Assembly: GCA_027533395.1 (NCBI GenBank)
Contig: JAPZUF010000035.1
Span: 1-38,267 of the forward strand
From: Cyclobacteriaceae bacterium
GTDB lineage: Bacteria > Bacteroidota > Bacteroidia > Cytophagales > Cyclobacteriaceae
Direction of reading: 5' to 3'
DNA length: 38,267 bases
Both the position numbers and the translations under genes were made by a program. This document shows positions 10,528 through 24,008 of the stretch, piece after piece. How positions within the stretch are numbered: the first letter of the stretch is position 1; each line of letters begins with the position of its first letter. Under the pieces are notes generated by a model, which worked only from the letters and a program-made list of their open reading frames with translations, was not told the origin of the DNA and made no database searches.

Positions 10528-12927
10528 CTATCGCGTTAGTTCTACTTTAACACCTAAGTGATCGCCTAATAAATTAAACTGTTTCAACCATTCTTGTACA
10601 TAACCTTCTTCACCTATCAAACTCTTTGAAATTTCGAAGTAAAGATTTTGGCTTCGATTTAAATCTGGCTGTATTTTAAATTTCTTTAATAAAGGAAATA
10701 ATCGATTTAACCTTTCAATTCTTTTAACATTGTGTCTTTCAGAACCGATGAGGTTTAGTTCTTTTAAAATACTGATGCCGGCCAATTGTTCTACTTTTCG
10801 AGGATCTTCAATTTTTAAGTCCCATTTGGCAATCTCTCCGGTTATTCTTTCAAATTCCTTTATGTTAATTTTCTCGCTAAAGCATTTTAGCAAATCAGCA
10901 TTTAATATATACTCGAACGTGGTTCGATAAGCATTTGGAATTGGAATTTCATTATTGGCTAGAGCCGTCACTAAAGGATAATCTCTGTTGTAAATTTTAC
11001 GAAGCGAATCTTCCAAATCGCTCATACTTTGTTGCGTAATCTGACTGAATACTTTTCTCTTTTCATCTTGAAACAATTGCCAGATGGTGTATTTTTCAGG
11101 ACCAAAATATTGCTGCATCAATCCAATTACCTCTCCCAGCCTGCTTTCTTCAAAAGCTTTTACCATACGAACCTGCATACTGGCAAAGCGATCTTCTTCC
11201 ATATCGATAGAAATATTACCGATGATGTTATGCTTACCCATATAAATTACTGCAAAAGCAAATTTCTTTTCCGAGCGGGTTACGATTGATTTTACTTTGG
11301 TAACTCCCAATACTAACTTTTGTTCTCCTGCTTCTTTCTTTACAAAAACTTCGTTCGAAGTATTATAATTGAAAACAGGAAATGCATCAGGATCATCTTC
11401 GAATATACTTGCAACTGCATAATGCATACCTACTCTTTGTAAGTTGGTTTTTGCAGGCAAAACAAATCTCTTATAAACTTGAGTAGCATCACCATAAGCC
11501 TTTATATTACTTTGGGCCAATGATAATCTACTTAAAAATTCTTCCTCTAAATCACGTTCTGCAATCTGGCTAACCAACTGCATGGCTCGGCAAGCATATT
11601 GCATAATTTGAGTTGTCTCTATTCCTGAAACTTCATCGAAGAACCAACCACAACTGGTAAACATCAACATGGCATGTCTTTGCATTTCGAGCAAGCGCAA
11701 AATCTTACTCTGATCTACATCTTGCACACCATATTCTTTTAAAAACTTTTTGATGGTCTCATCATTTCTTTTCAAAATGATTTTGATATAATCATTGCGG
11801 GCTGCCTCCGGGTCTTTGAAATATTCTTTTCCTTTTTGAAAATAAATTTGAGTTAACTCGTTTCGCAACCAATCTAAACTTTCTCGCAAAGGTTTACGCC
11901 ACTCTTGGTTCCAATCTGATCTGCCTCCTGTATTACAACCACAATTGCTGCGCCAACGTTCTACTCCATGTACGCAACTCCATGAACTATTATCATGAAT
12001 TTGTGCGTATTGTGTAGGTTGATGTTTGCTCAGATACTCAGCATAATTGGTTAACTCGCACGATGTACTTCTCTCAATAAAGTCTAAACAGTAAGCCAAC
12101 GCCATCTCACCATGTTTGTGATGATGACCGTATGTTTCGCCATCTGTTGCTATATTAACAATCTGTGGTTCTGCATCAGATAAATCGAAAGATTGAGTTA
12201 AACTGTTTGCAAACTTAAGTCCGTCATTTAGCAGACCGTTAAAAGCAACACCTTGTGCGATATCGCCATCATAAAAAAATACAGCTATTTTTCTTCCAGA
12301 TGGTAATTCAACCCAATAAGCTTTTTTTGTGTTGATACCTGCTTCTAACTTTTTATATTCTGCTTCACCTTCCTTACGAACAGCTTTTGCTTGGCGTGGC
12401 GCAAGAATGGTAAATTTGATTTCATGATCGACAAGTAAATCCAGTGTTTCTAAATCAACTGCTGTTTCTGCCAACCAAATTCCTTCCGGTTTTCTTTTGA
12501 AACGAAATTCGAAATCTCGAATACCCCAGATGATTTGTGTTTCTTTGTCGCGCTTGTTTGCCAAAGGCATGATGATGTGATTATACACTTGCGCAATAGC
12601 AGAACCATGACCTGAAAAATTTTTCTTAGATGCTTCATCTGCTTCTAGTATAGCCTCATACGTTTCAGGATCATAGGTTTCCATCCACGAAAGCAAAGTA
12701 GCACCAAAATTAAAACTGATTTTAGAATAGTTATTGATGATGTTTTTGATAACACCTTTATCATTTAAAATTCTAGACGCTGCATTTGGCGCATAACACT
12801 CTGCCGTTATTCTTTCATTCCAATCGTGAAAGGGATGGGCAGAATCTTGTACTTCAATTACTTCTAACCATGCGTTTTCGCGCGGTGGCTGATAAAAATG
12901 TCCGTGTATGCAAATGTACTTTTCCAA
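10528..12927 (-). CDS. GH57/DUF3536 glycoside hydrolase-like protein
   Basis: This 799-residue cytoplasmic protein has an N-terminal GH57 barrel beginning KYICIHGHFYQPPREN. The catalytic Glu is probably Glu154 in EGIWLAETAVD, and the second carboxylate Asp262 in ATDGETYGHHH; both are present. The rest (about 310-799) corresponds to DUF3536, including a cysteine-containing stretch SWSCVHGVERWRSNCGCNTG. GH57 enzymes include amylases and branching enzymes of alpha-glucans, but the DUF3536 group has no established activity that I know of. It sits 31 bp after glgB and 2 bp before the 62-aa gene, so a role in glucan turnover or remodelling is inferred from context. Confidence 0.85.
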   Translation of the reverse strand: MEKYICIHGHFYQPPRENAWLEVIEVQDSAHPFHDWNERITAECYAPNAASRILNDKGVIKNIINNYSKISFNFGATLLSWMETYDPETYEAILEADEASKKNFSGHGSAIAQVYNHIIMPLANKRDKETQIIWGIRDFEFRFKRKPEGIWLAETAVDLETLDLLVDHEIKFTILAPRQAKAVRKEGEAEYKKLEAGINTKKAYWVELPSGRKIAVFFYDGDIAQGVAFNGLLNDGLKFANSLTQSFDLSDAEPQIVNIATDGETYGHHHKHGEMALAYCLDFIERSTSCELTNYAEYLSKHQPTQYAQIHDNSSWSCVHGVERWRSNCGCNTGGRSDWNQEWRKPLRESLDWLRNELTQIYFQKGKEYFKDPEAARNDYIKIILKRNDETIKKFLKEYGVQDVDQSKILRLLEMQRHAMLMFTSCGWFFDEVSGIETTQIMQYACRAMQLVSQIAERDLEEEFLSRLSLAQSNIKAYGDATQVYKRFVLPAKTNLQRVGMHYAVASIFEDDPDAFPVFNYNTSNEVFVKKEAGEQKLVLGVTKVKSIVTRSEKKFAFAVIYMGKHNIIGNISIDMEEDRFASMQVRMVKAFEESRLGEVIGLMQQYFGPEKYTIWQLFQDEKRKVFSQITQQSMSDLEDSLRKIYNRDYPLVTALANNEIPIPNAYRTTFEYILNADLLKCFSEKINIKEFERITGEIAKWDLKIEDPRKVEQLAGISILKELNLIGSERHNVKRIERLNRLFPLLKKFKIQPDLNRSQNLYFEISKSLIGEEGYVQEWLKQFNLLGDHLGVKVELTR

Positions 12928-12958: not shown

Positions 12959-14914
12959 TCAAGATCCTAGTTCAAACTCTTTTAACTCTCTTTCAAGTTT
13001 GATGATGGAGATGGCTAAAGGTGGCAAAGATAATGAAATTGAATAATCCCTGCCGTGGTATCTTACTGGGCTGGTGGATAAAGATGCTTGGTTAAGAAAA
13101 CCACTACCTCCGTATTTCAAATTATCTGTATTGAAGATTTCTTTCCAAATGCCGCGTGTGTTTACTCCTATTCTATAATTATGTCTTACCTCCGGTGTGA
13201 AGTTACAAATCACCAATAAAGAATCGTCAGGGTTTTCTGCTTTGCGCATATAAATCATGACAGAATTTTCTCTATCACTGTAATCTACCCATTCAAATCC
13301 TCTTTCTTCAAATGCAAATTGATACAAAGCTTTTTCTGTTTTATACAAGTGATTCAAATCTTGCATCAATCTGAATATGCCTTGATGGAAATGATAATCT
13401 AATAAATGCCAATCCAGACTGATATCATGTTTCCATTCAGATGTTTGTCCGAACTCACCACCCATGAACAGCAATTTTGTGCCAGGATGTGTAAACATAT
13501 AACCATATAACAAACGAAGATTGGCAAAACGTTTCCACTCATCTCCTTGCATTCGGCCCATCAGCGGTCCTTTACCATGAACAACTTCATCATGCGATAA
13601 AGGCAACATAAAGTTTTCGGTAAACGCGTACATGATGCTGAACGTAATTTCATTCATGTGGTATTTACGATGCACAGGATCTTCTTTAAAGAAATGCAAT
13701 GTATCGTGCATCCAACCCATCATCCATTTTTGTCCGAAACCTAAGCCACCTAAATAAGTGGGACGAGAAACACCCGGCCAGGCTGTTGATTCTTCTGCTA
13801 TCGTAATTACATCAGGAAACTCTCCATATACGACTTCGTTGAGTTCCTTTAAAAAGGAAATTGCTTCTAAATTTTCTCTTCCTCCATATTGATTGGGTAT
13901 CCACTCGCCTGCTTTGCGAGAGTAATCTAAATACAACATACTGGCTACAGCATCAACACGCAAACCATCAATGTGAAATTGTTCAATCCAAAACACTGCA
14001 TTGCTGATTAGAAAAGATCTTACTTCGTTTCTGCCATAATTGAAAATATAACTTTTCCAATCTGGATGAAAACCTTTACGCGGATCGGCATGTTCATACA
14101 AATGTGTTCCATCGAAATAATACAAGCCGTGAGCATCACCAGGGAAATGAGACGGAACCCAATCGAGTATAACTCCGACTTCTGCCTGATGGAAAGCATC
14201 TACTAGAAATTTAAATTCTTCAGGATTTCCAAAACGAGAAGTTGGCGCAAAGTATCCTGTAACCTGATAACCCCATGATCCAAAGAATGGATGCTCCATT
14301 ACAGGTAAAAATTCTACATGTGTAAATCCGGCATCTTTCACATACTGAACCAAATCAGTTGCTAACTCTTGGTAAGACAAACTTCTGTTGCCTTCTTCCA
14401 CCTTTCTTTTCCACGAACCCATATGAACTTCATAAACAGAATATGGTTTTGGATTTGATTTGCTTTCCATGCGTTTATTCAACCATGGTGTATCTTTCCA
14501 ATTGTATTCTTCATCCCAAATAATAGAAGCTGTTTTTGGGGGAATTTCTGCGTAACGCGCAAATGGATCTGCCTTTTCTAAATGTTCCCCATTATTAGAA
14601 ATAATATGATACTTATATACCTCACCTTTATTAATGTTGGGGAAAAAGTTTTCCCAAATGCCACTGCCATCCCAACGAGGAAAAAGTTTATGCTGTGTTT
14701 TATCCCAATGATTAAAATTACCGATTACTGAAACTTCTCTTGCATTGGGTGCCCAAACAGCAAAATAAACACCAACTTGTCCTTGGTGTGTTACAACATG
14801 CGCACCTAACTTTTCATATAACTTAAAATGCTTTCCATTTTTAAACAGGTGAATATCAAATTCGCTGAGTAATGAAAAACTTTTTTCTTTCGTATCTTCT
14901 TTTTGCTTTGCCAT
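12959..14914 (-). CDS. glgB: 1,4-alpha-glucan branching enzyme
   Basis: The 651-residue GH13 branching enzyme makes alpha-1,6 branches in the linear glucan produced by GlgE. An N-terminal CBM48 domain (about 30-130, [20 protein letters not shown]) precedes the barrel. The nucleophile is Asp321 ([15 protein letters not shown]), the acid/base Glu374 ([13 protein letters not shown]), and [12 protein letters not shown] supplies the third Asp. The sequence [13 protein letters not shown] and the C-terminal beta domain are typical. It lacks the extra N1 domain of longer GlgB proteins, hence the shorter length. It starts three bases after the TreS-maltokinase stop, in the order usual for GlgE-pathway operons. 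All catalytic residues are present. Confidence 0.95.
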
Positions 14915-14917
14915 GGC

Positions 14918-17900
14918 TTAAGCTTTGGATTTTTTTCTTTTTGATTTCTCTTCTTTTTCACCTACATAGCGATTAATCAAATAATCGATTCCGCGAAGTG
15001 GTATGACCGTCCAATCGGGGCGACCATTTAATTCGTAACCCAATTCATATATCGCTTTCTCAATTAAGAAGGTGCGTATCAATGTATCGTATTCTTCTGT
15101 CAACTCTGCCCCCATTCCCATGCGATCCATATAGGCACCAAGATAAAATCTACTTACATAATGTTGCCATTGTTCGGCCCAAGCTTCTAAAAATTCTAAG
15201 TCACGATCGCGGTAATTTTCGTTAAGCAAAATTTTTCCAAACGCTGCATAGTGGAATGAACGCATCATTCCGGCTACATCTTTAAATGGATTTTTTTTCA
15301 ATCTTCTCTCGCTGAATGAAAAACCCGGTTCTCCTTCAAAATCGATGATGACAAAGTCTTTACCTGTAAACAATACTTGGCCTAGATGATAATCTCCATG
15401 AATTCTTGTTTTGATAGCATCGATTTTTATTTCATAAATTTCCTTGAAACAAGTAAGGATGGTGTCTTCCGAATCCAAAACTTTCTTTGCTAACTTTTTA
15501 GTATTGTCATCTAATTTATGTATCGATTGCTCTAACAGGTTAAGTCTGTCGCGAACTAATTTACGAAGCGAAGCATATAGTGACCGTTGGTAATTGGCAT
15601 TAAAAGATTCAGGAGCAAATGCAGGATCTTGGTTATCGGATGCCAACGCTAAATGCATTTCGGCAGTTCGATGACCTAAACGCACTACACGTTCGTAAAA
15701 ACCACGGCCGATAAATTCTTGTATCAACTCAGGTGCTTCTTCAAATTTAATAGCTGCTTTGTTGATTAAGCGAGGAAGTTTTTCATTTTTGGCTTTTGCC
15801 ATCACGCGATCAAAAAATCGTCCTACTGAATCTACAGCCATACCCCATGCTTCTCCTTGGTTTTCAACTTTTACTTGCAAAAGACCAAACACCATCACTT
15901 TTCCAGTATTGTCTTTAAATTCTACGCTACCTGAGTAGCGAGGTGAATTAGAAAAACTTGTGCTTTCGGATAAGAAGCGCAAAATTTCTAGATCCGGATT
16001 GATTTCATTTTCAATTTTTCTATAAAACTTAAAGAAATACTCGTCATTGAAAATAATAGCTGTGTTACTTTGATCAGATTTTAAAATTTTTGAATCTATT
16101 CCGTTCTTAGAACTTAATTTAGCATATACACTGTTGTTAAATTCTAAAACTCCTTCTTCACTCTTTACTTTAAATCCTTTCTCCATACTGGCAAATAGAA
16201 AACTTCTGAATGCTTTGTCGTAGCTTGCATCGATAACAAAGCCTGGTTTTCCTTGTATTTCTACCCTGCACAAAACACTTTGTGGCGTAAAATCAAATTG
16301 TTCAACAACATTATCTGCAGGTGCAAATGAAAGTGGAATAAAATATAATTCAGGTAATCGCTGTGCATAACTAACTTCTACAACAACAAAATAATAAGTT
16401 ACGCCATCGACCTTAACAGGAATAATTCTGTTAACGCTTACTTTTGTTACAACTTTTGCTTTGCCACCAAACCATCTGCATTTGCGCATAAAACCGGGGA
16501 ATACTTTGCGCTCGAAAACTCTCAATTCATTATAGTTGGTCAACAATCTATCCCAACTTATATCTGTTTTGTGAAAATACAAATCAGCTTGTGTCTCTCC
16601 TGTTTTTAATTTTTCTGCGGCATCAACTTGCAACCAGAAATAACCATACGGTCCTATGGTTAAGGCATATTCACCTTCACCTACATTCATAAAACGATTC
16701 TGGCTGAACACTTCTGTTACATCACAGTCTTTGTAATCTGTTAACTTTAAAGTCGTGTATTGAGAGAATTGTGAAAGATTGGCAACTACAATCACTGTTT
16801 GCTTTTCGTGGCTGCGTGCAAAACATAAAACCTTTGCATTAGAAGACTCAATAAATTTCATGCTACCTCTTCCAAAAACATTGAGTCGCTTACGCATAGC
16901 CATTACTTGCTTCATCCACCAAATAAGTGATGAAGTGTTTTCTTCTTGTGTGGCAACGTTAACAGATTCGTATCGATAAACTGGATCAGTGATAACAGGT
17001 AAATGTAACTTTTGCGGATTAGCAGTTGAGAAACCTGCATTTAAATTCATGTTCCACTGCATGGGCGTTCGTACACCGAAGCGATCGCCTAGATAAACAT
17101 TATCACCCATGCCAATCTCATCTCCATAATAAAGAATAGGTGTGCCAGGCAATGAAAAAAGTAAGGTATGCAAGAGTTCGATTTTTCTTCTATCGTTATC
17201 AAGCATAGGTGCTAATCTTCTTCGAATGCCTTTATTAAATTTTGAACTTGCATCCGTTGCGTAAGCTTTGAAGAGATAATCCTTCTCTTCATCTGTTACC
17301 ATGTCTAAACCTAACTCATCGTGGTTGCGCAAAAACAATAACCATTGCGTTGATTCTGGTATAGTAGGTGTTTGTTCCATGATGTCAACAATGGGATAAC
17401 TATCTTCCGTACGCAATCCCAAGAACAAACGAGGCATTAAGGGAAAATAAAAACTAAGGTGACATTCATCTTCACCTTTACCAAAATATGTCGCAGCATC
17501 TTCTGGCCACAAATTGGCTTCTGCCAATAAAACTCTATTCTTATAATGTTTGTCTATGTAAGCACGAAGTCTTCGCAAGAAAGCATGTGTTTGAGGTAAG
17601 TTCTCACAACTTGTATCTTCTTCTTCGTATAAAAATGCAATGGATGATAATCTAAAGCCATCAACACCTAGCTTCAGCCAAAAGTCAACTACTTTAGTTA
17701 ACTCTAACTGAACTTCCGGATTTTCAAAATTTAGTTCAGGCTGATAAGAACGAAAGCGATGCCAGTAGTAAGCTTTAGCTTCATTATCCCAACTCCAATT
17801 CGAATTGGTTTCATCTGCAAAAAGTACACGCGCATCTTTATATTTTTCCGGAGTTTCGCTCCACACATAATAGTCGCGCAGCCTTGTTCCGGCTTTAGAT

Positions 17901-18262
17901 CTTCTTGCTTTCTTAAACCATGGATGTTGATCGCTAGTGTGATTGAGTATTAACTCAGTAATTACTTTTATGCCACGTGCATGTGCTTCTTTTAAAAATT
18001 GTTTGAAGTCCGCCAAAGTACCATAATCCGGATGAATATCATTATGATTGATGACATCATATCCATCATCTTTTAATGGAGAAGGATAAAAGGGCAAAAG
18101 CCAAATAGCAGTTACTCCTAAATCTTCGAGGTAATCTAGTTTTTGAATCAAGCCTTGAAAATCACCTATGCCATCACCATTGCTATCGTAGAAAGAACGA
18201 ATCGATAACTCATAAATGATAGCATCTTTATACCACATTGTATCAGTGTGCCGTATGTTCAT
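14918..18262 (-). CDS. TreS-maltokinase fusion with degenerate TreS active site
   Basis: This 1114-residue two-domain protein has a trehalose-synthase-like GH13 domain (about 1-550) followed by a maltokinase/Pep2 domain (about 575-1100). The kinase half has its cap motif RWFGGKAK (596-603), HGDYHLGQ (from His955) with the catalytic Asp957, and DFEGEP (from Asp974), so it should phosphorylate maltose to maltose-1-phosphate with ATP. In the TreS half the acid/base Glu248 (LLAEANLWPED) and Asp315 (LRNHDELGLD) are kept. However, the nucleophile site reads DGFRLSSIAFLY, with Ser206 where family members have Asp, and SYQPELNFENP and GYDVINHNDIHP also depart from the usual SHQPDLNFDNP and GYDIADY. 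Trehalose isomerisation is therefore probably lost. It lies between glgE and glgB with gaps of 13 and 3 bp. Confidence 0.9.
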   Translation of the reverse strand: MNIRHTDTMWYKDAIIYELSIRSFYDSNGDGIGDFQGLIQKLDYLEDLGVTAIWLLPFYPSPLKDDGYDVINHNDIHPDYGTLADFKQFLKEAHARGIKVITELILNHTSDQHPWFKKARRSKAGTRLRDYYVWSETPEKYKDARVLFADETNSNWSWDNEAKAYYWHRFRSYQPELNFENPEVQLELTKVVDFWLKLGVDGFRLSSIAFLYEEEDTSCENLPQTHAFLRRLRAYIDKHYKNRVLLAEANLWPEDAATYFGKGEDECHLSFYFPLMPRLFLGLRTEDSYPIVDIMEQTPTIPESTQWLLFLRNHDELGLDMVTDEEKDYLFKAYATDASSKFNKGIRRRLAPMLDNDRRKIELLHTLLFSLPGTPILYYGDEIGMGDNVYLGDRFGVRTPMQWNMNLNAGFSTANPQKLHLPVITDPVYRYESVNVATQEENTSSLIWWMKQVMAMRKRLNVFGRGSMKFIESSNAKVLCFARSHEKQTVIVVANLSQFSQYTTLKLTDYKDCDVTEVFSQNRFMNVGEGEYALTIGPYGYFWLQVDAAEKLKTGETQADLYFHKTDISWDRLLTNYNELRVFERKVFPGFMRKCRWFGGKAKVVTKVSVNRIIPVKVDGVTYYFVVVEVSYAQRLPELYFIPLSFAPADNVVEQFDFTPQSVLCRVEIQGKPGFVIDASYDKAFRSFLFASMEKGFKVKSEEGVLEFNNSVYAKLSSKNGIDSKILKSDQSNTAIIFNDEYFFKFYRKIENEINPDLEILRFLSESTSFSNSPRYSGSVEFKDNTGKVMVFGLLQVKVENQGEAWGMAVDSVGRFFDRVMAKAKNEKLPRLINKAAIKFEEAPELIQEFIGRGFYERVVRLGHRTAEMHLALASDNQDPAFAPESFNANYQRSLYASLRKLVRDRLNLLEQSIHKLDDNTKKLAKKVLDSEDTILTCFKEIYEIKIDAIKTRIHGDYHLGQVLFTGKDFVIIDFEGEPGFSFSERRLKKNPFKDVAGMMRSFHYAAFGKILLNENYRDRDLEFLEAWAEQWQHYVSRFYLGAYMDRMGMGAELTEEYDTLIRTFLIEKAIYELGYELNGRPDWTVIPLRGIDYLINRYVGEKEEKSKRKKSKA

Positions 18263-18275
18263 AGGCTTTAAATTT

Positions 18276-20207
18276 TTATAGATTAGATTCGTGTATGCTT
18301 ACTTCAAAAAGATGGAAAGGCATACGATTCGGATCAAGCTCTACGTAATTCCATTCTTGTGTCCAGGTGTAGTTTTCGCCAGTCATCACATCTTTTAACT
18401 TTACATTAATTCCCTTTTGAGTATTCTTCAAATCACTTGATAATTGAAGATAACCTGCTTGTTTATTATGTTGATCCAAATTGATAACAACCAAAACGCG
18501 GTTACTATTATCGTCTGACTTTTTATAGAATGCTAACAAATTAGGATTTTCGATATTTAAAAACTCGATATTCCAAGTGCTTTGCAAAGCTAAATTTGAT
18601 TTCCTTGTTTTATTGAGAATCGTCATGATGTCAGTAATGCGATTGGTTTTCTTCCAATCATAATGCTTTACTTCATACTTTTCAGAATCGTTGAATTCTT
18701 CCTTGCCATTCCATGGCGTATTATCAAGCAATTCGTAAGCCGGACCATATATACCATAGTTAGATGATAGAGTTGCCGCCAAGGCCAAACGAATAATAAA
18801 CATATTCTCTCCTTGATAATGCAAATGATAAGGAAGGATATCGGGTGTTGTTGGCCAGAAATTAGGTCGGAAATAATCTCTTGAGGATGTATGAACCAAC
18901 TCATTCATGTATTGCATCAATTCAGCTTTGGTTACGCGCCAAGTGAAATAAGTATAACCTTGTGTGAAACCAACTTTGGCAAGCGATGCCATAATCTTTG
19001 GCCGAGTAAAAGCTTCGGATAAGAAAATTACATCTTCGTATTTTTTATTGGTTTCTGCAATAACCCACTGCCAGAATGGTATAGGTTTGGTATGAGGATT
19101 ATCTACCCTGAAAACTTTAACTCCACAATCTATCCAAAAGAATACTACTGATTTTAATTCTTCCCAAAGTTCTTGCCAGCTTTCACATTCATAATCGAAA
19201 GGATAAATATCCTGGTATTTTTTGGGTGGGTTTTCAGCGTATTGAATACTTCCATCAGGTCTTTGTTTAAACCATTCCGGATGTTCTTTTACATAAGGAT
19301 GATCAGGCGCACACTGAAAGGCCAAATCTAAAGCAATGTCAATTCCGTGTTCGTTTGCTTTTTTTATTAAATTCTTGTAATCATCTAAAGTTCCCAAGTC
19401 CGGGTGAATGGCTTTATGCCCACCTTCATCACTACCTATAGCCCAAGGTGATCCTGGTTCACCGCTCACAGATCGCACGTTATTGTTCTTTCCTTTTCTA
19501 TTGATTTTACCAATAGGATGCACCGGAGGCATATAGAGCACATCGAAACCCATTGAGGCGATACGAGGTAACAATTTTTCTACATCTCTTAATGTTCCGT
19601 GTTTACCATTTAAAGAAGCTGAACGTGGAAATAGTTCGTACCATGTTGTGAAATTAGCTCTGTGTTCTTCGATTTGTAAGCTGTAAATATTTGACTCAGT
19701 TTGAAATTGCTTATCAGGATGATTAACAACAATTTCTTCAAATTCTTTGCTTTGTATCCAAGCTACGTTTTCAGCAAATTTTGTTTTATCTTCTAGTTGG
19801 TTGGCTAGCTTTACAATCTTTTTATCGGTGCTTAATTTTTTAAGAAAGATTGCTCCTTCTAATAATTCAACTGATACATCTACCTTAGCATTTGCCTTTT
19901 TGATAAAGCCATCGTACCAGGTTTCAAAATGATCTATCCAGGCATGAATTTGAAACTCATACAAACCTTTTTCAGGAATGAAAAGTGAAGTCTCCCACTC
20001 ATCATTTTGTTTATGTGTTAACGATTGCTTTAACCATTTCTTCTCTTGCTTTTTTCTGTACAAAACTTCAGCTCTGATATGGTCGTGACCATCCGTAAAA
20101 ATGTGAGCCTTAAAGGTTACAAGTTCTTTAACAGTTCTCTTTGCTGGATATAGTCCACTCTCTACTTGTGGTTGTACATTTTCAATAATTACTCGGGAAC
20201 GGGTCAT
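18276..20207 (-). CDS. glgE: Alpha-1,4-glucan:maltose-1-phosphate maltosyltransferase
   Basis: The 643-residue GH13 enzyme extends alpha-1,4-glucan by transferring maltosyl units from maltose-1-phosphate. The N-terminal GlgE-specific domain (about 1-120, with RVIIENVQPQVESGLYPAKR) is present. The diagnostic KVFRVDNPHTKPIPFWQW holds the nucleophile Asp369, FLSEAFTRP the acid/base Glu398, and WPTTPDILPY the third acidic residue Asp456. The spacing matches that of characterised GlgE enzymes. HGTLRDVEKLLPRIASMGFD and PVHPIGKINRKGKNN are also typical. It has no signal peptide, so it is cytoplasmic. It follows the second amylase by three bases and feeds GlgB encoded two genes on. Confidence 0.95.
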   Translation of the reverse strand: MTRSRVIIENVQPQVESGLYPAKRTVKELVTFKAHIFTDGHDHIRAEVLYRKKQEKKWLKQSLTHKQNDEWETSLFIPEKGLYEFQIHAWIDHFETWYDGFIKKANAKVDVSVELLEGAIFLKKLSTDKKIVKLANQLEDKTKFAENVAWIQSKEFEEIVVNHPDKQFQTESNIYSLQIEEHRANFTTWYELFPRSASLNGKHGTLRDVEKLLPRIASMGFDVLYMPPVHPIGKINRKGKNNNVRSVSGEPGSPWAIGSDEGGHKAIHPDLGTLDDYKNLIKKANEHGIDIALDLAFQCAPDHPYVKEHPEWFKQRPDGSIQYAENPPKKYQDIYPFDYECESWQELWEELKSVVFFWIDCGVKVFRVDNPHTKPIPFWQWVIAETNKKYEDVIFLSEAFTRPKIMASLAKVGFTQGYTYFTWRVTKAELMQYMNELVHTSSRDYFRPNFWPTTPDILPYHLHYQGENMFIIRLALAATLSSNYGIYGPAYELLDNTPWNGKEEFNDSEKYEVKHYDWKKTNRITDIMTILNKTRKSNLALQSTWNIEFLNIENPNLLAFYKKSDDNSNRVLVVINLDQHNKQAGYLQLSSDLKNTQKGINVKLKDVMTGENYTWTQEWNYVELDPNRMPFHLFEVSIHESNL

Positions 20208-20210
20208 GTT

Positions 20211-21758
20211 TTATTGTAGGATTATAGTACCAAACGCTGGGACAAAAACTTGTTTATCTTTAAGCATGCCACCTCGCGTTTCAAATATTATTTCATTGTA
20301 ATCAGATAATGAAGAAGGAATATCAATAGCAATTTCTACGTCAGCCAAATTGTGAAGAACCCATTGACTTTTATCTTGATATGATCGAGTAAAAGAAATG
20401 ATTTCTTTAATATTCAAATTAGCTTCATCAATTGAGCCAAGACTTAATGCTGTTGATTGGTTTCTGAAAGCTATCCATTTTTTGTAATAATGATAAATGG
20501 AGGTTTGATCCAACACTTGCTGATTAGCTGGTTTAACCGTTAACGCTGTACTATATGTTGAAGGATACCAATTACTTTGTGCAGCATCTTTACCTGGTAA
20601 ATCCCAAACGAATGATTCTCTTTGACCTCTGTCTTGATCTATTTTAGGACCTAACATCCCTATTTCTTCACCTTGGTAGATATAAGGTGTTCCAGGTAAG
20701 CTCATCAAGATAGAAACAGCTAACTTCATTTTGTCTACATCACCATTCAATTCAGTTAATGTTCTACTTTGATCGTGATTGCGGATAAATGTAGCATCAA
20801 TAAAATCAGGTGTGATGCTGTGATAATAGTCAAAAATCTCCTTGTATTTTTTTACCAATCTTAAACTATCATTTCCTTTATTAACCACTTCCGTAATTGC
20901 ATAGCCCATGTCGAAATTAAAAAGAGATGGAAGTCCTTTTAAATAAGGAGCAACAGTTTTAGCATCCGACCATACTTCACCTACTAAATAAGCATTAGGT
21001 TTCATCTTAATGATTTCCCCTCTGAATTCTTCCCAAAAAAGGTGATTGTCGGTAGCACGAACTGTTGGAAAAATATGTTTAGCCGCGTCTAAGCGAAAAC
21101 CATCTACTCCAATATCTACTAACCAAAATTTAGCCGCATCATAAATCTCTTGCCTAACTTTCGGGTTATCAAAATTTAAATCAGGAGTTTGACCATTGAA
21201 ATAACCATAGTATAACTCACCGTTAGCTTCGCCAGGTACTTCATGCCACTTTTGCACATTATCCGTATCAGGTCCTGCTACCTCATCTTGCTCTAACAAA
21301 GCGACTGAATCTTGCGATGCCCATACATAATAATCTCGGTATGGATTATCTTTTCCTTTTTTAGCTTCAATAAACCATGGATGATCATCTCCAGTATGGT
21401 TAATGATAAAGTCTGTAATGATTTTGATATTTCGTTTGTGCGCCTCTCGTAATAGTTCTTTAAAATCTTCAATGGTGCCATACTCCGGATCGATGCCTTT
21501 ATAATCTATCACATGGTATTTGTGGTAAGTATTAGAAGGCATAATCGGCATCAACCATAAACCATTTACACCTAAATCAACAAAGTAATCGAGTTTAGAA
21601 GTTAAGCCTTTGATGTCTCCTTTTCCATCACCATTACTGTCGGCAAAAGCCATAACAAATAATTCATATTTTACACCATATGGAAATTCAACTGACATTT
21701 TTTCATCTTTTACACTACACGACAATAACAAGAAACAAAAGAGTAAACACTTTTTCAT
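20211..21758 (-). CDS. GH13 alpha-amylase-family lipoprotein
   Basis: The 515-residue enzyme has a lipoprotein signal (MKKCLLFCFLLLSC, Cys14), so it probably acts in the periplasm or on the outer membrane. A metal-binding loop ADSNGDGKGD lies at about 39-48. The GH13 residues are complete: Asp224 in DGFRLDAAKHIFP, Glu261 in LVGEVWSD and Asp329 in IRNHDQSR. The QGEEIGMLG motif and C-terminal beta domain follow. It most likely hydrolyses alpha-glucans or maltodextrins to small oligosaccharides such as maltose; exact specificity cannot be read. Its start overlaps the preceding amylase gene by 4 bp and its stop lies three bases before glgE. Confidence 0.88.
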   Translation of the reverse strand: MKKCLLFCFLLLSCSVKDEKMSVEFPYGVKYELFVMAFADSNGDGKGDIKGLTSKLDYFVDLGVNGLWLMPIMPSNTYHKYHVIDYKGIDPEYGTIEDFKELLREAHKRNIKIITDFIINHTGDDHPWFIEAKKGKDNPYRDYYVWASQDSVALLEQDEVAGPDTDNVQKWHEVPGEANGELYYGYFNGQTPDLNFDNPKVRQEIYDAAKFWLVDIGVDGFRLDAAKHIFPTVRATDNHLFWEEFRGEIIKMKPNAYLVGEVWSDAKTVAPYLKGLPSLFNFDMGYAITEVVNKGNDSLRLVKKYKEIFDYYHSITPDFIDATFIRNHDQSRTLTELNGDVDKMKLAVSILMSLPGTPYIYQGEEIGMLGPKIDQDRGQRESFVWDLPGKDAAQSNWYPSTYSTALTVKPANQQVLDQTSIYHYYKKWIAFRNQSTALSLGSIDEANLNIKEIISFTRSYQDKSQWVLHNLADVEIAIDIPSSLSDYNEIIFETRGGMLKDKQVFVPAFGTIILQ

Positions 21759-23551
21759 AGTTGCACTTTAAATATGTAACTCGAATAAGGTTTGAGAGAA
21801 AGTGAAGTTTTAAAATCTTTCACTTCCAATTCATTAGTTTGATTCAATTGATCTTTCCACTTCGAATCTTTTAATTTTGGTAATGTTACTTGCAGATTTT
21901 CAGGAATAACTAATTCAATCTGCATTGGAACGTCATTAAAGGAATTGATGATGAGTAATACTTCATTCTCAGTATATCTTAAAAAAGCATGGACGTCATT
22001 CCCAAAGTTGGCTTTTTCAACATTGTAAGTTGTTATATCGGCATACTTACCTCCTACTATAGCCTCGTTGCTCTGAGCAAAATTTAAAATCGTTTGATAA
22101 TATTGTCGCAAATCTTTTTGCCCTTGCGATAGAAGTGAGTCATTGCAATTTCCGTTGTTGTACCACTTCTGATGTTCTGGTGCAGACCAATAATCAAAAA
22201 TGGTTGTTCTTCCATCTTCTCCTCCAAAACCTTCTGCACCTTTACCGGGCTCTCCCACTTCTTGTCCAAAGTAGATCATCACCGGACCTTGATCAATGGT
22301 AGCACTGATTGTCATCGCAGGAATTGCTCTAAATGGATTACCTGCAAAGAAAGGCGAAGCGATTCGCTGTTCATCATGATTTTCTAAAAAGTGAAGCATG
22401 TGTTGGGTTACACCATTTAACCTTTCTTGAATTTCAGGGATATCACTTGTGTTTCTCTTTTTATCTATCAATAGACGTAGTGTATCATACAACAAAACTT
22501 TTTCATATAGATAATCGAATCCTCCAGTGGAAATATATTTTCTGTAGGCATCTGGATTATAAATTTCTGCTATGAAAAGAATTTCAGGATTTACTTTTTT
22601 GACTTGCGGAATAACCCAATTCCAAAATTCCACAGGAACCATTTCTGCAACATCACATCTAAAGCCATCCACTTTTTTGTTTGCCCAAAAAACCAGAATG
22701 TCGCGCATTTTTTCCCAAGTATTTGGAATGGGCTCAAAATAATTTGTTTTATTGTTGAGTATATCTACACCGTAATTAAGCTTAACAGTTTCAAACCATT
22801 CATTAATTCCTGGTGAAGAGGTGAATTGATCATTTCCTGTAACTTTTGCAGGACTTTCTTGGTAACGGCCATCTTTCTCAGGAAAAAATGTTTTGGTGAT
22901 GGCTGCACTTTCTTCAGGAACTTTAAAAGATTCTCCCGGTAAATAATAAAAGTTATTGTTTGGCAAGAAAGCTTTTGTTTGATCATCTCCTTCTCCTAAA
23001 TCTTTAACACCTGTTGGCTTTTGATCTGATTGGTAAGAACGAGCAACATGGTTAGGAATGAAATCGATGATCACTTTTAAATTTTGTTGATGTGTTCGTT
23101 CGATCAATTGCTCGAACTCATTCATTCTATTTTTAACATCAACAGCTAAATCAGGATCAACATCATAATAATCTTTAATCGCATAAGGCGAACCCGCTCT
23201 TCCTTTGATTACATCTGGGTCATCTTTCTTTATTCCAAACGCTGAGTAGTCAGTCATGATAGCGTGTTCCAAAACGCCTGTATACCATACATGCGTGATA
23301 CCCAATTTTTTCAGTTCAACTAAAACAGTGTCTGTTATATCATTGAATTTACCTACACCATTTTCCTGAATTGTGCCATAAGGCTTATTGGTGGTGTTTT
23401 TATTGCTAAACAAACGCGTAAGCATTTGGTAAACGACTACTTTTTTGCTTGTTGTTGGTATCATCTCGCTTGGTATTTTTTCATCCTTGCTTTGGCAAGC
23501 AAAAAGCAAAAGAAAAATAAGGGTAAAAGAGAGTAAGTTTCGACATGTCAT
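21755..23551 (-). CDS. GH13 alpha-amylase-family lipoprotein (first gene of operon)
   Basis: The 598-residue protein has a lipoprotein signal ending LLLFAC (Cys19). The GH13 barrel retains Asp300 (DGFRCDVAEMVP), Glu329 (FIAEIYN) and Asp393 (FLENHDEQR). Other signs are VVYQMLTRLF at the start of the barrel, VIIDFIPNHVARSY (region I) and YFGQEVGEPG. An insertion of about 90 residues between region I and region II (about 172-260) is longer than in the neighbouring amylase. Its activity is probably alpha-glucan hydrolysis. It heads the seven-gene minus-strand operon and overlaps the next gene by 4 bp. An 85-bp gap to the cytochrome gene upstream may hold the operon promoter. Confidence 0.85.
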   Translation of the reverse strand: MTCRNLLSFTLIFLLLFACQSKDEKIPSEMIPTTSKKVVVYQMLTRLFSNKNTTNKPYGTIQENGVGKFNDITDTVLVELKKLGITHVWYTGVLEHAIMTDYSAFGIKKDDPDVIKGRAGSPYAIKDYYDVDPDLAVDVKNRMNEFEQLIERTHQQNLKVIIDFIPNHVARSYQSDQKPTGVKDLGEGDDQTKAFLPNNNFYYLPGESFKVPEESAAITKTFFPEKDGRYQESPAKVTGNDQFTSSPGINEWFETVKLNYGVDILNNKTNYFEPIPNTWEKMRDILVFWANKKVDGFRCDVAEMVPVEFWNWVIPQVKKVNPEILFIAEIYNPDAYRKYISTGGFDYLYEKVLLYDTLRLLIDKKRNTSDIPEIQERLNGVTQHMLHFLENHDEQRIASPFFAGNPFRAIPAMTISATIDQGPVMIYFGQEVGEPGKGAEGFGGEDGRTTIFDYWSAPEHQKWYNNGNCNDSLLSQGQKDLRQYYQTILNFAQSNEAIVGGKYADITTYNVEKANFGNDVHAFLRYTENEVLLIINSFNDVPMQIELVIPENLQVTLPKLKDSKWKDQLNQTNELEVKDFKTSLSLKPYSSYIFKVQL

Positions 23552-23636
23552 TCTTAAAGATAAAGAGGTGAACGTGCCGAAATGATAAAAAGCGAGTAAA
23601 AAAATCAGAAATCGATTGCAATAAACCCAAAATGGG

Positions 23637-24008
23637 CTAATTCACTTTAAAACTTAATATGTAAGCAGCCATTTCACGTGCATCTTCTTCGCTTATATCA
23701 TTATGTGGTAACATGGCTATATCTCCCCAAACGCCAGAACCTCCTACAATAATTTTACGTGCTAAATAAGTTTGCGCTGTATCAACATTTGCATAACGTA
23801 AAGCTACAGCTTCGTAGGATGGTCCAATTAATCTGTTTTTTGTATGGTGACATGTTTGACAGTCGCTACTTTCAATCAAAACTTGTCCGCGTGGTAAGGT
23901 TTCTTCAGTTGAAATATTTTTCGTTTGTTCCTTTGTGGTTTCTTTTTTAGAACCACACGCCCACAAAAAAATGCTAATGATTAAAGAAAGAAAATGCAAT
24001 TTTTTCAT
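23637..24008 (-). CDS. Cytochrome c lipoprotein
   Basis: The 123-residue protein has a lipoprotein signal (SLIISIFLWAC, Cys18) and a single class I cytochrome c domain. The haem-binding motif is CQTCH at about residues 54-58, and a distal Met ligand is likely in IAMLPHNDIS near residue 103. The C-terminal helix REMAAYILSF is typical. It probably carries electrons in the periplasm, partner unknown. It follows the YdcF-like gene by three bases and is probably in the ABC transporter operon; the glucan operon begins 85 bp downstream. Confidence 0.85.
   Translation of the reverse strand: MKKLHFLSLIISIFLWACGSKKETTKEQTKNISTEETLPRGQVLIESSDCQTCHHTKNRLIGPSYEAVALRYANVDTAQTYLARKIIVGGSGVWGDIAMLPHNDISEEDAREMAAYILSFKVN

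Follow-up and report, generated by a model that had tools for sequence, protein, structure and literature searches.

The DNA analysed here (the window) is a 38,267-nt stretch of contig JAPZUF010000035.1, positions 1 to 38,267, from assembly GCA_027533395.1 of a Cyclobacteriaceae bacterium. Its reverse strand carries a GlgE operon in which one gene encodes a trehalose synthase (TreS)-like domain fused to a maltokinase. GlgE and two amylase-like genes stand upstream of the fusion gene in the same direction, while the genes for the branching enzyme GlgB and for a glycoside hydrolase family 57 (GH57)/DUF3536 protein lie downstream (Table 1). With GlgE and GlgB both beside the maltokinase, the operon is otherwise complete in this genome, as the initial annotation of the window had it. 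The GlgE pathway is described as leading from trehalose to alpha-glucan, and the TreS half of this fusion lacks its catalytic nucleophile.

A TreS-maltokinase fusion without the TreS nucleophile

Both halves of the protein pass as members of the expected families: the fusion scores 825 to 828 bits against the TreS model TIGR02456 (NCBI cut-off, 678) and 440 bits against the maltokinase model TIGR02457 (NCBI cut-off, 375). When aligned to solved TreS chains, Ser206 coincides with the Asp of the DGxRLD motif, a position that corresponds to the nucleophile D238 of Mycobacterium tuberculosis TreS (PMC11019547; here and below, PubMed Central numbers denote excerpts of the papers concerned). The initial annotation had already read a Ser in place of the catalytic Asp, and the TCA codon together with this alignment bears it out. 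The altered nucleophile segment DGFRLSSIAFLY and the divergent segments GYDVINHN and SYQPELNFENP are likewise present as it described, and the acid/base Glu248 and the third catalytic Asp, Asp315, are indeed kept, together with His314 and Arg204. As to whether a nearby Asp could take over as nucleophile, no conserved acid adjoins position 206 in the clade of fusions that lack the nucleophile (the dead-TreS clade, below), while acids gained at positions 75, 79, and 183 lie, by sequence, in nearby loops.

An engineered D238A variant of M. tuberculosis TreS is reported to be inactive, with its fold intact and a trehalose analogue bound in the pocket (PMC11019547). Since the TreS half of the window protein has no nucleophile, it is not expected to interconvert trehalose and maltose, and we infer from the alignment that TreS activity has been lost. 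Annotation of the fusion as a trehalose synthase is therefore probably wrong for the whole clade, despite scores above the NCBI equivalog-domain cut-off.

The kinase half, in contrast to the TreS half, retains its catalytic residues, as initially annotated. The P-loop Lys, the His, the HGD, DFE, and DVA motifs, and the K/Y/Y maltose residues are all found in the window protein (motif roles from PMC4306142). Among 62 non-redundant clade members, K745, H870, H955, D957, and D974 are present in all, and the K/Y/Y residues are found in 60 to 61 of the 61 rows long enough to include them. Judged from these motifs, the kinase half most likely phosphorylates maltose.

Table 1. Features of the fusion gene and its operon in the window (positions as in the window; all on the reverse strand)
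Feature	Position	Strand	Basis
TreS-maltokinase fusion, TreS half without nucleophile	14918..18262	-	Open reading frame of 1114 residues
TreS-like GH13 half, residues 10-546	16625..18235	-	TIGR02456 match; PDB TreS chains
Codon 206 (TCA), Ser for the TreS nucleophile Asp	17645..17647	-	Alignment to 41 canonical rows and solved TreS chains
Maltokinase half with complete catalytic motifs, residues 577-1095	14978..16534	-	TIGR02457; motif counts; PDB maltokinases
HGD catalytic loop, residues 955-957	15392..15400	-	D957 in 62/62 clade members; codons
DFE Mg-binding motif, residues 974-976	15335..15343	-	D974 in 62/62 clade members; codons
GlgE maltosyltransferase	18276..20207	-	PF11896, PF21702
GlgB branching enzyme	12959..14914	-	NF003811, 979 bits
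GH57/DUF3536 protein, possible 4-alpha-glucanotransferase	10528..12927	-	PF12055, PF03065
GH13 alpha-amylase-like protein, lipoprotein-like N-terminus (by eye)	20211..21758	-	PF00128, PF23915
Second GH13 amylase-like protein, first gene of the run, lipoprotein-like N-terminus (by eye)	21755..23551	-	PF00128; conserved neighbour
LacI-type operator-like site GCAATCGATTTC	23608..23619	-	Sole match within 1 mismatch in the window

Spread of the loss and conservation of the TreS half

Homologues were collected from a related-locus search, from relatives, and from a family-wide maltokinase search. Rows aligned over more than 1000 of the 1114 residues were taken as full-length; after removal of 31 short-flank copies (L001, L112-L141), 117 such rows remained, including the window gene. 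Position 206 is Pro, Ala, Ser, or Gly in 76 of them and Asp in the other 41. The two sets were split by residue 206 itself; their separateness rests on identity to the window protein (62 to 91% for the 75 other non-Asp rows and 43 to 53% for the 41 Asp rows) and on trees of 43 non-Asp and 38 Asp representatives rather than of all 117 rows. The non-Asp set includes Chryseotalea, Chryseolinea, Ohtaekwangia, Dawidia, Chryseosolibacter, and others, as isolates and as metagenome-assembled genomes (MAGs). A TreS-half tree of these representatives parts the two sets with Shimodaira-Hasegawa-like approximate likelihood ratio test (SH-aLRT) values of 86 and 90; three stand-alone TreS-like proteins with the Asp served as its distant outgroup. 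The stand-alone TreS-like proteins of some relatives scored under the TreS cut-off. A tree of 81 rows, from which column 206 was left out, shows a single change between Asp and non-Asp. The nucleophile loss, as these trees and identities indicate, happened once and is clade-wide and old.

A sequencing error was rejected, Pro, Ala, Ser, or Gly standing at position 206 in all 76 rows of the group, isolates and MAGs alike. A decaying pseudogene was also rejected, given frames of more than 1000 residues in many assemblies and strong purifying selection (below); the chance that either explains the locus is practically nil.

Once the Asp was gone, position 206 moved freely among small residues, with at least 19 changes within the 43 non-Asp rows and Pro in 25 of the 62 non-redundant members. 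As many changes or more occur in 19 of the 539 TreS-half columns, 206 included. Within the motif, positions 199 to 205 changed 0 to 2 times each, position 207 changed 5 times, and position 198 changed 19 times. The pocket residues D65, H108, R204, H314, and D315 are invariant in 62/62 members and show no change on the tree. E248 changed twice (Glu in 60/62, Asp in 2/62), and position 68 changed 7 times (Tyr in 32, Phe in 30). We take D65 and Y68 to be contacts of the -1 sugar, by analogy with dextran glucosidase. The two genes with Asp at position 248, L089 and L091, are among the more divergent clade members, and no GlgE was found beside L091.

The canonical TreS half has 265 positions with an invariance of 97% or more; the clade retains 163 of these and not the other 102, so its TreS half has diverged beyond the loss of the nucleophile. 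A conserved acid was gained at eight TreS-half positions (75, 79, 161, 183, 440, 441, 472, and 514); none of the eight lies in the four catalytic segments, and positions 75 and 79 (after GYD) and 183 (after QPELN) fall in nearby loops. Median ratios of nonsynonymous to synonymous substitution rates (dN/dS) are 0.017 (TreS half) and 0.022 (kinase half), approximate values from the 18 usable of 156 close clade pairs at a median dS of 1.72; for canonical fusions (4 pairs) the values are 0.033 and 0.089. Within the window's own genus synonymous sites are saturated, and a TreS-half value was obtained in 1 of 10 pairs and a kinase-half value in none. These estimates indicate strong purifying selection on the dead TreS half.

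A TreS half that catalyzes something new without Asp206, for example transfer from a pre-activated donor, is hardly to be expected. Engineered glycosidases deprived of their nucleophile carry Ala, Gly, or Ser in its place, and the occurrence of these residues at position 206, along with an acid/base Glu retained in 60/62 members, would suit such chemistry. However, Pro at 206 in 25/62 members and at least 19 switches among Pro, Ala, Ser, and Gly are unlike a tuned catalytic site, and none of the eight gained acids entered the four catalytic segments. The new activity that the initial annotation had considered for the TreS part is thus unlikely by the usual retaining route, the nucleophile site being Pro in so many members.

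Trehalose genes, maltose supply, and the operon across relatives

GlgE lies beside the fusion gene in 58 and GlgB in 60 of the 62 non-redundant clade loci; three of the four loci that miss GlgE are on contigs ending just upstream, the fourth being L091. Just upstream of the operon in the window, on the same strand (23637-24008), is a gene for a 123-residue lipoprotein-like, c-type cytochrome-like protein with a CQTCH haem motif. A sodium:solute symporter gene (PF00474; 8623-10011, reverse strand) follows the GH57 gene. Of the 61 other non-redundant clade loci, many of them too short to reach it, 4 have a symporter with the operon (L039, L040, L084, and L095).

We compared 65 genomes, which are related and not independent cases: the 64 with a maltokinase match, minus the partial G076, plus G040 and G053. 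They fall into five groups: A, with the dead-TreS fusion only (16 genomes); B, with a dead-TreS and a canonical fusion (12); C, with a canonical fusion in the GlgE operon (18); D, with a canonical fusion outside a GlgE operon (11); and E, with a maltokinase without a TreS half (8). MalQ, GH65, TreZ, glycosyltransferase family 5 (GT5), and trehalase were searched for in 46 of the 65 (groups A to C), and TreS was searched for in 47 (A, B, D, and E). GlgE is found in all genomes of groups A, B, C, and E (16/16, 12/12, 18/18, and 8/8) and in 1/11 of group D. TreY above the cut-off is absent from groups A (0/16) and E (0/8) and present in 12/12 of B, 18/18 of C, and 2/11 of D; TreZ follows it in the groups searched (A, 0/16; B, 12/12; C, 18/18). 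OtsA occurs in 2/16 of A, 12/12 of B, 18/18 of C, 11/11 of D, and 4/8 of E. Each group A genome has exactly one TreS above the cut-off, with no second one in any of the 16, and group E has none. GH77 MalQ above the cut-off was found in 0/16 of A, 11/12 of B, and 18/18 of C (in broken pieces in G123 of group C), and GH65 in 16/16, 12/12, and 10/18, respectively. A full-length GH37 trehalase match is present in 7 of the 16 group A genomes. The GT5 glycogen-synthase search gave a match in all 46 genomes, mostly of ~270 to 340 residues, and is uninformative on the feed.

No second TreS above the cut-off and no TreY, TreZ, OtsA, or GH37 trehalase was found in the window's genome by a search that left out TreT, OtsB, and GT4. 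A trehalose feed through an active TreS is accordingly not expected, the nucleophile, TreY, TreZ, OtsA, and a second TreS all being absent. The check that the initial annotation had proposed for an intact treS, otsA, or treY/treZ elsewhere in the genome thus came out negative (for TreS, above the cut-off), and its claim of a GlgE pathway uncoupled from trehalose gains support from these absences. A weak residual trehalose synthase or a trehalose hydrolase, working through another residue such as a gained acid or through water, is very improbable. It would agree with the TIGR02456 score far over the cut-off, with the other catalytic-segment residues that are kept, and with gained acids 75, 79, and 183, near the pocket motifs in sequence. 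It is opposed by the reported inactivity of the M. tuberculosis nucleophile mutant (PMC11019547) and by the absence of TreY and TreZ from 16/16 and of OtsA from 14/16 group A genomes.

In group B, where both forms occur together, the lone GlgE gene adjoins the dead-TreS gene and not the canonical one in 12/12 genomes; the canonical gene adjoins TreZ and TreY in G151 and G099. The mirror image is seen in group D. There, the catalytic Asp of the kinase is lost in 8 of 11 fusions (HGD replaced by HGN, HGH, or HSN) and the DFE Asp in 6 of 11, with the TreS nucleophile Asp present in 11/11; both kinase Asp residues persist in all canonical genes of group C (18) and group B (12). GlgE is missing from 10 of the 11 genomes, 7 of which have lost the HGD Asp (G007, G091, and G157 keep it), and G111, the group D genome with GlgE, has a dead-kinase fusion plus a second, GlgE-linked copy. 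The dead-kinase genes outside GlgE operons are L165, L175, L177, L178, L179, L180, L212, and L213. Maltose-contact residues have drifted in these eight dead kinases (K1069 kept in 2/8, Y1072 in 1/8, and Y1076 in 1/8), and the kinase half is still full length. A third outcome is seen in group E: in 8/8 loci (L166-L173; GlgE is split over two frames in L172), GlgE and GlgB accompany a kinase that has no TreS half and keeps its HGD, D(F/Y)E, and K/Y/Y residues. GlgE operons also occur in the family without any TreS, as these eight relatives show. The simplest reading of the three outcomes is that the two-headed enzyme loses the head that its pathway no longer uses.

The initial annotation expected maltose to come from another source, and the window's genome offers support in a maltose-phosphorylase-like GH65 enzyme and a Sus-type starch cluster. 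These lie on contig C18, which encodes GH65, SusE/F-, SusC-, and SusD-like proteins, a LacI-type regulator, a GH31 alpha-glucosidase, GH13 enzymes, and a major facilitator superfamily transporter. The best PDB match of the GH65 protein is maltose phosphorylase 1h54 (805 bits); this typing covers the window's genome. No clear signal peptide is visible by eye at the start of the protein, and the maltose would thus be cytosolic. The operon's DUF3536/GH57 enzyme may be a second source: 4-alpha-glucanotransferase activity has been suggested for a Pontibacter DUF3536 GH57 protein (PMC11206854), and MalQ, which has that activity, can supply the kinase half with maltose in Pseudomonas aeruginosa (PMC11046441).

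The operon and the starch cluster share a putative regulatory site. An identical 22-nt string, which holds a LacI-type palindrome, is found upstream of the operon's first amylase gene and 91 bp before a frame running into the GH31 gene. Within 1 mismatch, GCAAWCGWTTGC matches once in the 38-kb window (at 23608) and twice over 40 kb of the starch cluster; the latter matches are at 11989-12000 and 19351-19362 of L228, from the same genome. Among 49 other clade operons, 16 also have a match within 1 mismatch upstream of their first amylase gene (L080, a row with an impossible position, is excluded from the 16). By comparison, random 110-bp stretches drawn from these loci matched in 5 of 2450 cases, and the 330-bp regions preceding canonical GlgE genes in 1 of 18. 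From this pattern we infer LacI co-regulation of the GlgE operon and the starch cluster.

A maltokinase with a candidate pseudoenzyme domain

Taken together, it is probable that the fusion is a maltokinase with a TreS pseudoenzyme domain, fed by imported or recycled maltose, and that its dead half is a maintained domain. Maltose would come from starch or maltodextrin via the SusCD-type cluster or be recycled in the cell, possibly by the DUF3536/GH57 enzyme, into a cytosolic pool common to the kinase and maltose phosphorylase. The kinase half would convert maltose and ATP to maltose 1-phosphate, from which GlgE of the same operon would add the maltosyl unit to glycogen, to be branched by GlgB. 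Where a genome has lost trehalose synthesis or leaves it to another copy, the GlgE-linked copy would have a dead TreS head and a kinase fed by maltose. The TreS half would stay folded, its sugar pocket largely built, its likeliest roles being to bind maltose or the end of a glucan and to keep the kinase in place or tune it. Both maltose as the feed and a ligand-binding, scaffold, or regulatory role are read indirectly, from gene content and conservation. Beyond what the initial annotation proposed for a single gene, the loss is clade-wide and old, a canonical copy is also present in 12 of the 28 genomes with the dead-TreS form, and a mirror-image loss exists.

Several points weigh against this reading. 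Support for the two clades is modest, with SH-aLRT values of just 86 and 90. Because the 12 genomes with both forms also have TreY, TreZ, and OtsA, the uncoupling from trehalose is at most partial there; within group A, GH37 trehalase is found in 7/16 and OtsA in 2/16 genomes. Imported trehalose is possible, and the search covered neither TreT nor OtsB nor GT4-type routes, including GlgM. Of the eight acids that the TreS half has gained, three lie in loops close to pocket motifs. As 193 of the 539 TreS-half columns are unchanged, the pocket residues may persist for folding alone, and an AlphaFold model built from 30 closely related rows was of such low confidence (mean predicted local distance difference test score, 62; predicted template modelling score, 0.37) that it was not used and is uninformative on the pocket. 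Finally, the operator-like pattern was picked after viewing sites in the same upstream regions in which it was counted, and 25 of the 49 have at least 3 mismatches to it.

The dead half of the proposed maltokinase is probably a ligand-binding, structural, or regulatory domain. Ligand binding, as a sensor or for capture, is favoured because the pocket is conserved while the nucleophile position has been freed. It is tempting, if tentative, to assume that the half is a sugar sensor, which would bind maltose, trehalose, or a glucan end without turnover and switch the fused kinase. The toxic maltose 1-phosphate would then be made only when maltose is plentiful, and one head would be lost for each missing partner: TreS without trehalose synthesis, the kinase without GlgE. 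In the main rival account, which we find rather unlikely, the TreS half is an inert structural platform for oligomerization and kinase docking, and its empty pocket is kept for the fold. The TreS tetramer of Mycobacterium smegmatis is such a platform, recruiting dimers of the maltokinase Pep2 (PMC11046441), M. tuberculosis TreS increased Pep2 activity (PMC6509496), and the mirror-image proteins likewise retain a full-length dead kinase half. However, maltose contacts have drifted in those eight dead kinases, yet five pocket residues are kept in 62/62 members of the dead-TreS clade. In addition, the eight group E relatives manage without any TreS half, and M. smegmatis TreS gave no stimulation of its Pep2 (PMC6509496).

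The differing stimulation of Pep2 by TreS in the two mycobacteria has left open how the TreS domain serves the kinase, and the clade offers a natural test of a non-catalytic service. The maltokinase with its candidate pseudoenzyme domain also suggests that the GlgE pathway can be a maltose-storage route. No natural TreS without its nucleophile was found in open-access literature by title and start of abstract, a search largely outside subscription papers that does not establish absence from print.

Among known proteins of the GH13 fold, the amino-acid transporter heavy chains rBAT and 4F2hc serve a partner protein rather than catalysis, and rBAT chains are among the PDB matches of the TreS half; they are, however, eukaryotic membrane proteins of an unrelated pathway. 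The closest counterparts of the whole fusion are the TreS-Mak (TreS-Pep2) proteins of Estrella lausannensis and P. aeruginosa PAO1, in which TreS is likewise fused to a maltokinase serving GlgE (PMC11046441), and the likeness extends to the GlgE-GlgB context and the kinase motifs. Those fusions make maltose 1-phosphate from trehalose, whereas in group A the nucleophile, TreY, TreZ, and mostly OtsA are absent. The P. aeruginosa MalQ bypass provides a parallel in that the kinase half phosphorylates maltose made without TreS (PMC11046441). P. aeruginosa, however, also uses TreS and TreY/TreZ; here GH77 MalQ is found in 0/16 group A genomes, and DUF3536/GH57 may substitute for it. The GlgE cluster of Pontibacter sp. 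SGAir0037 (PUL18) likewise has GlgE, TreS, branching enzyme, DUF3536/GH57, and amylase genes (PMC11206854); it differs in having TreY, TreZ, and GH77, and the likeness is one of gene content. M. tuberculosis TreS-D238A (PDB 8UQV) shares a small residue at the catalytic position and keeps its fold and its trehalose-analogue binding. It is a laboratory mutant with no fused kinase, whereas the change in the clade is natural, fixed, and accompanied by one.

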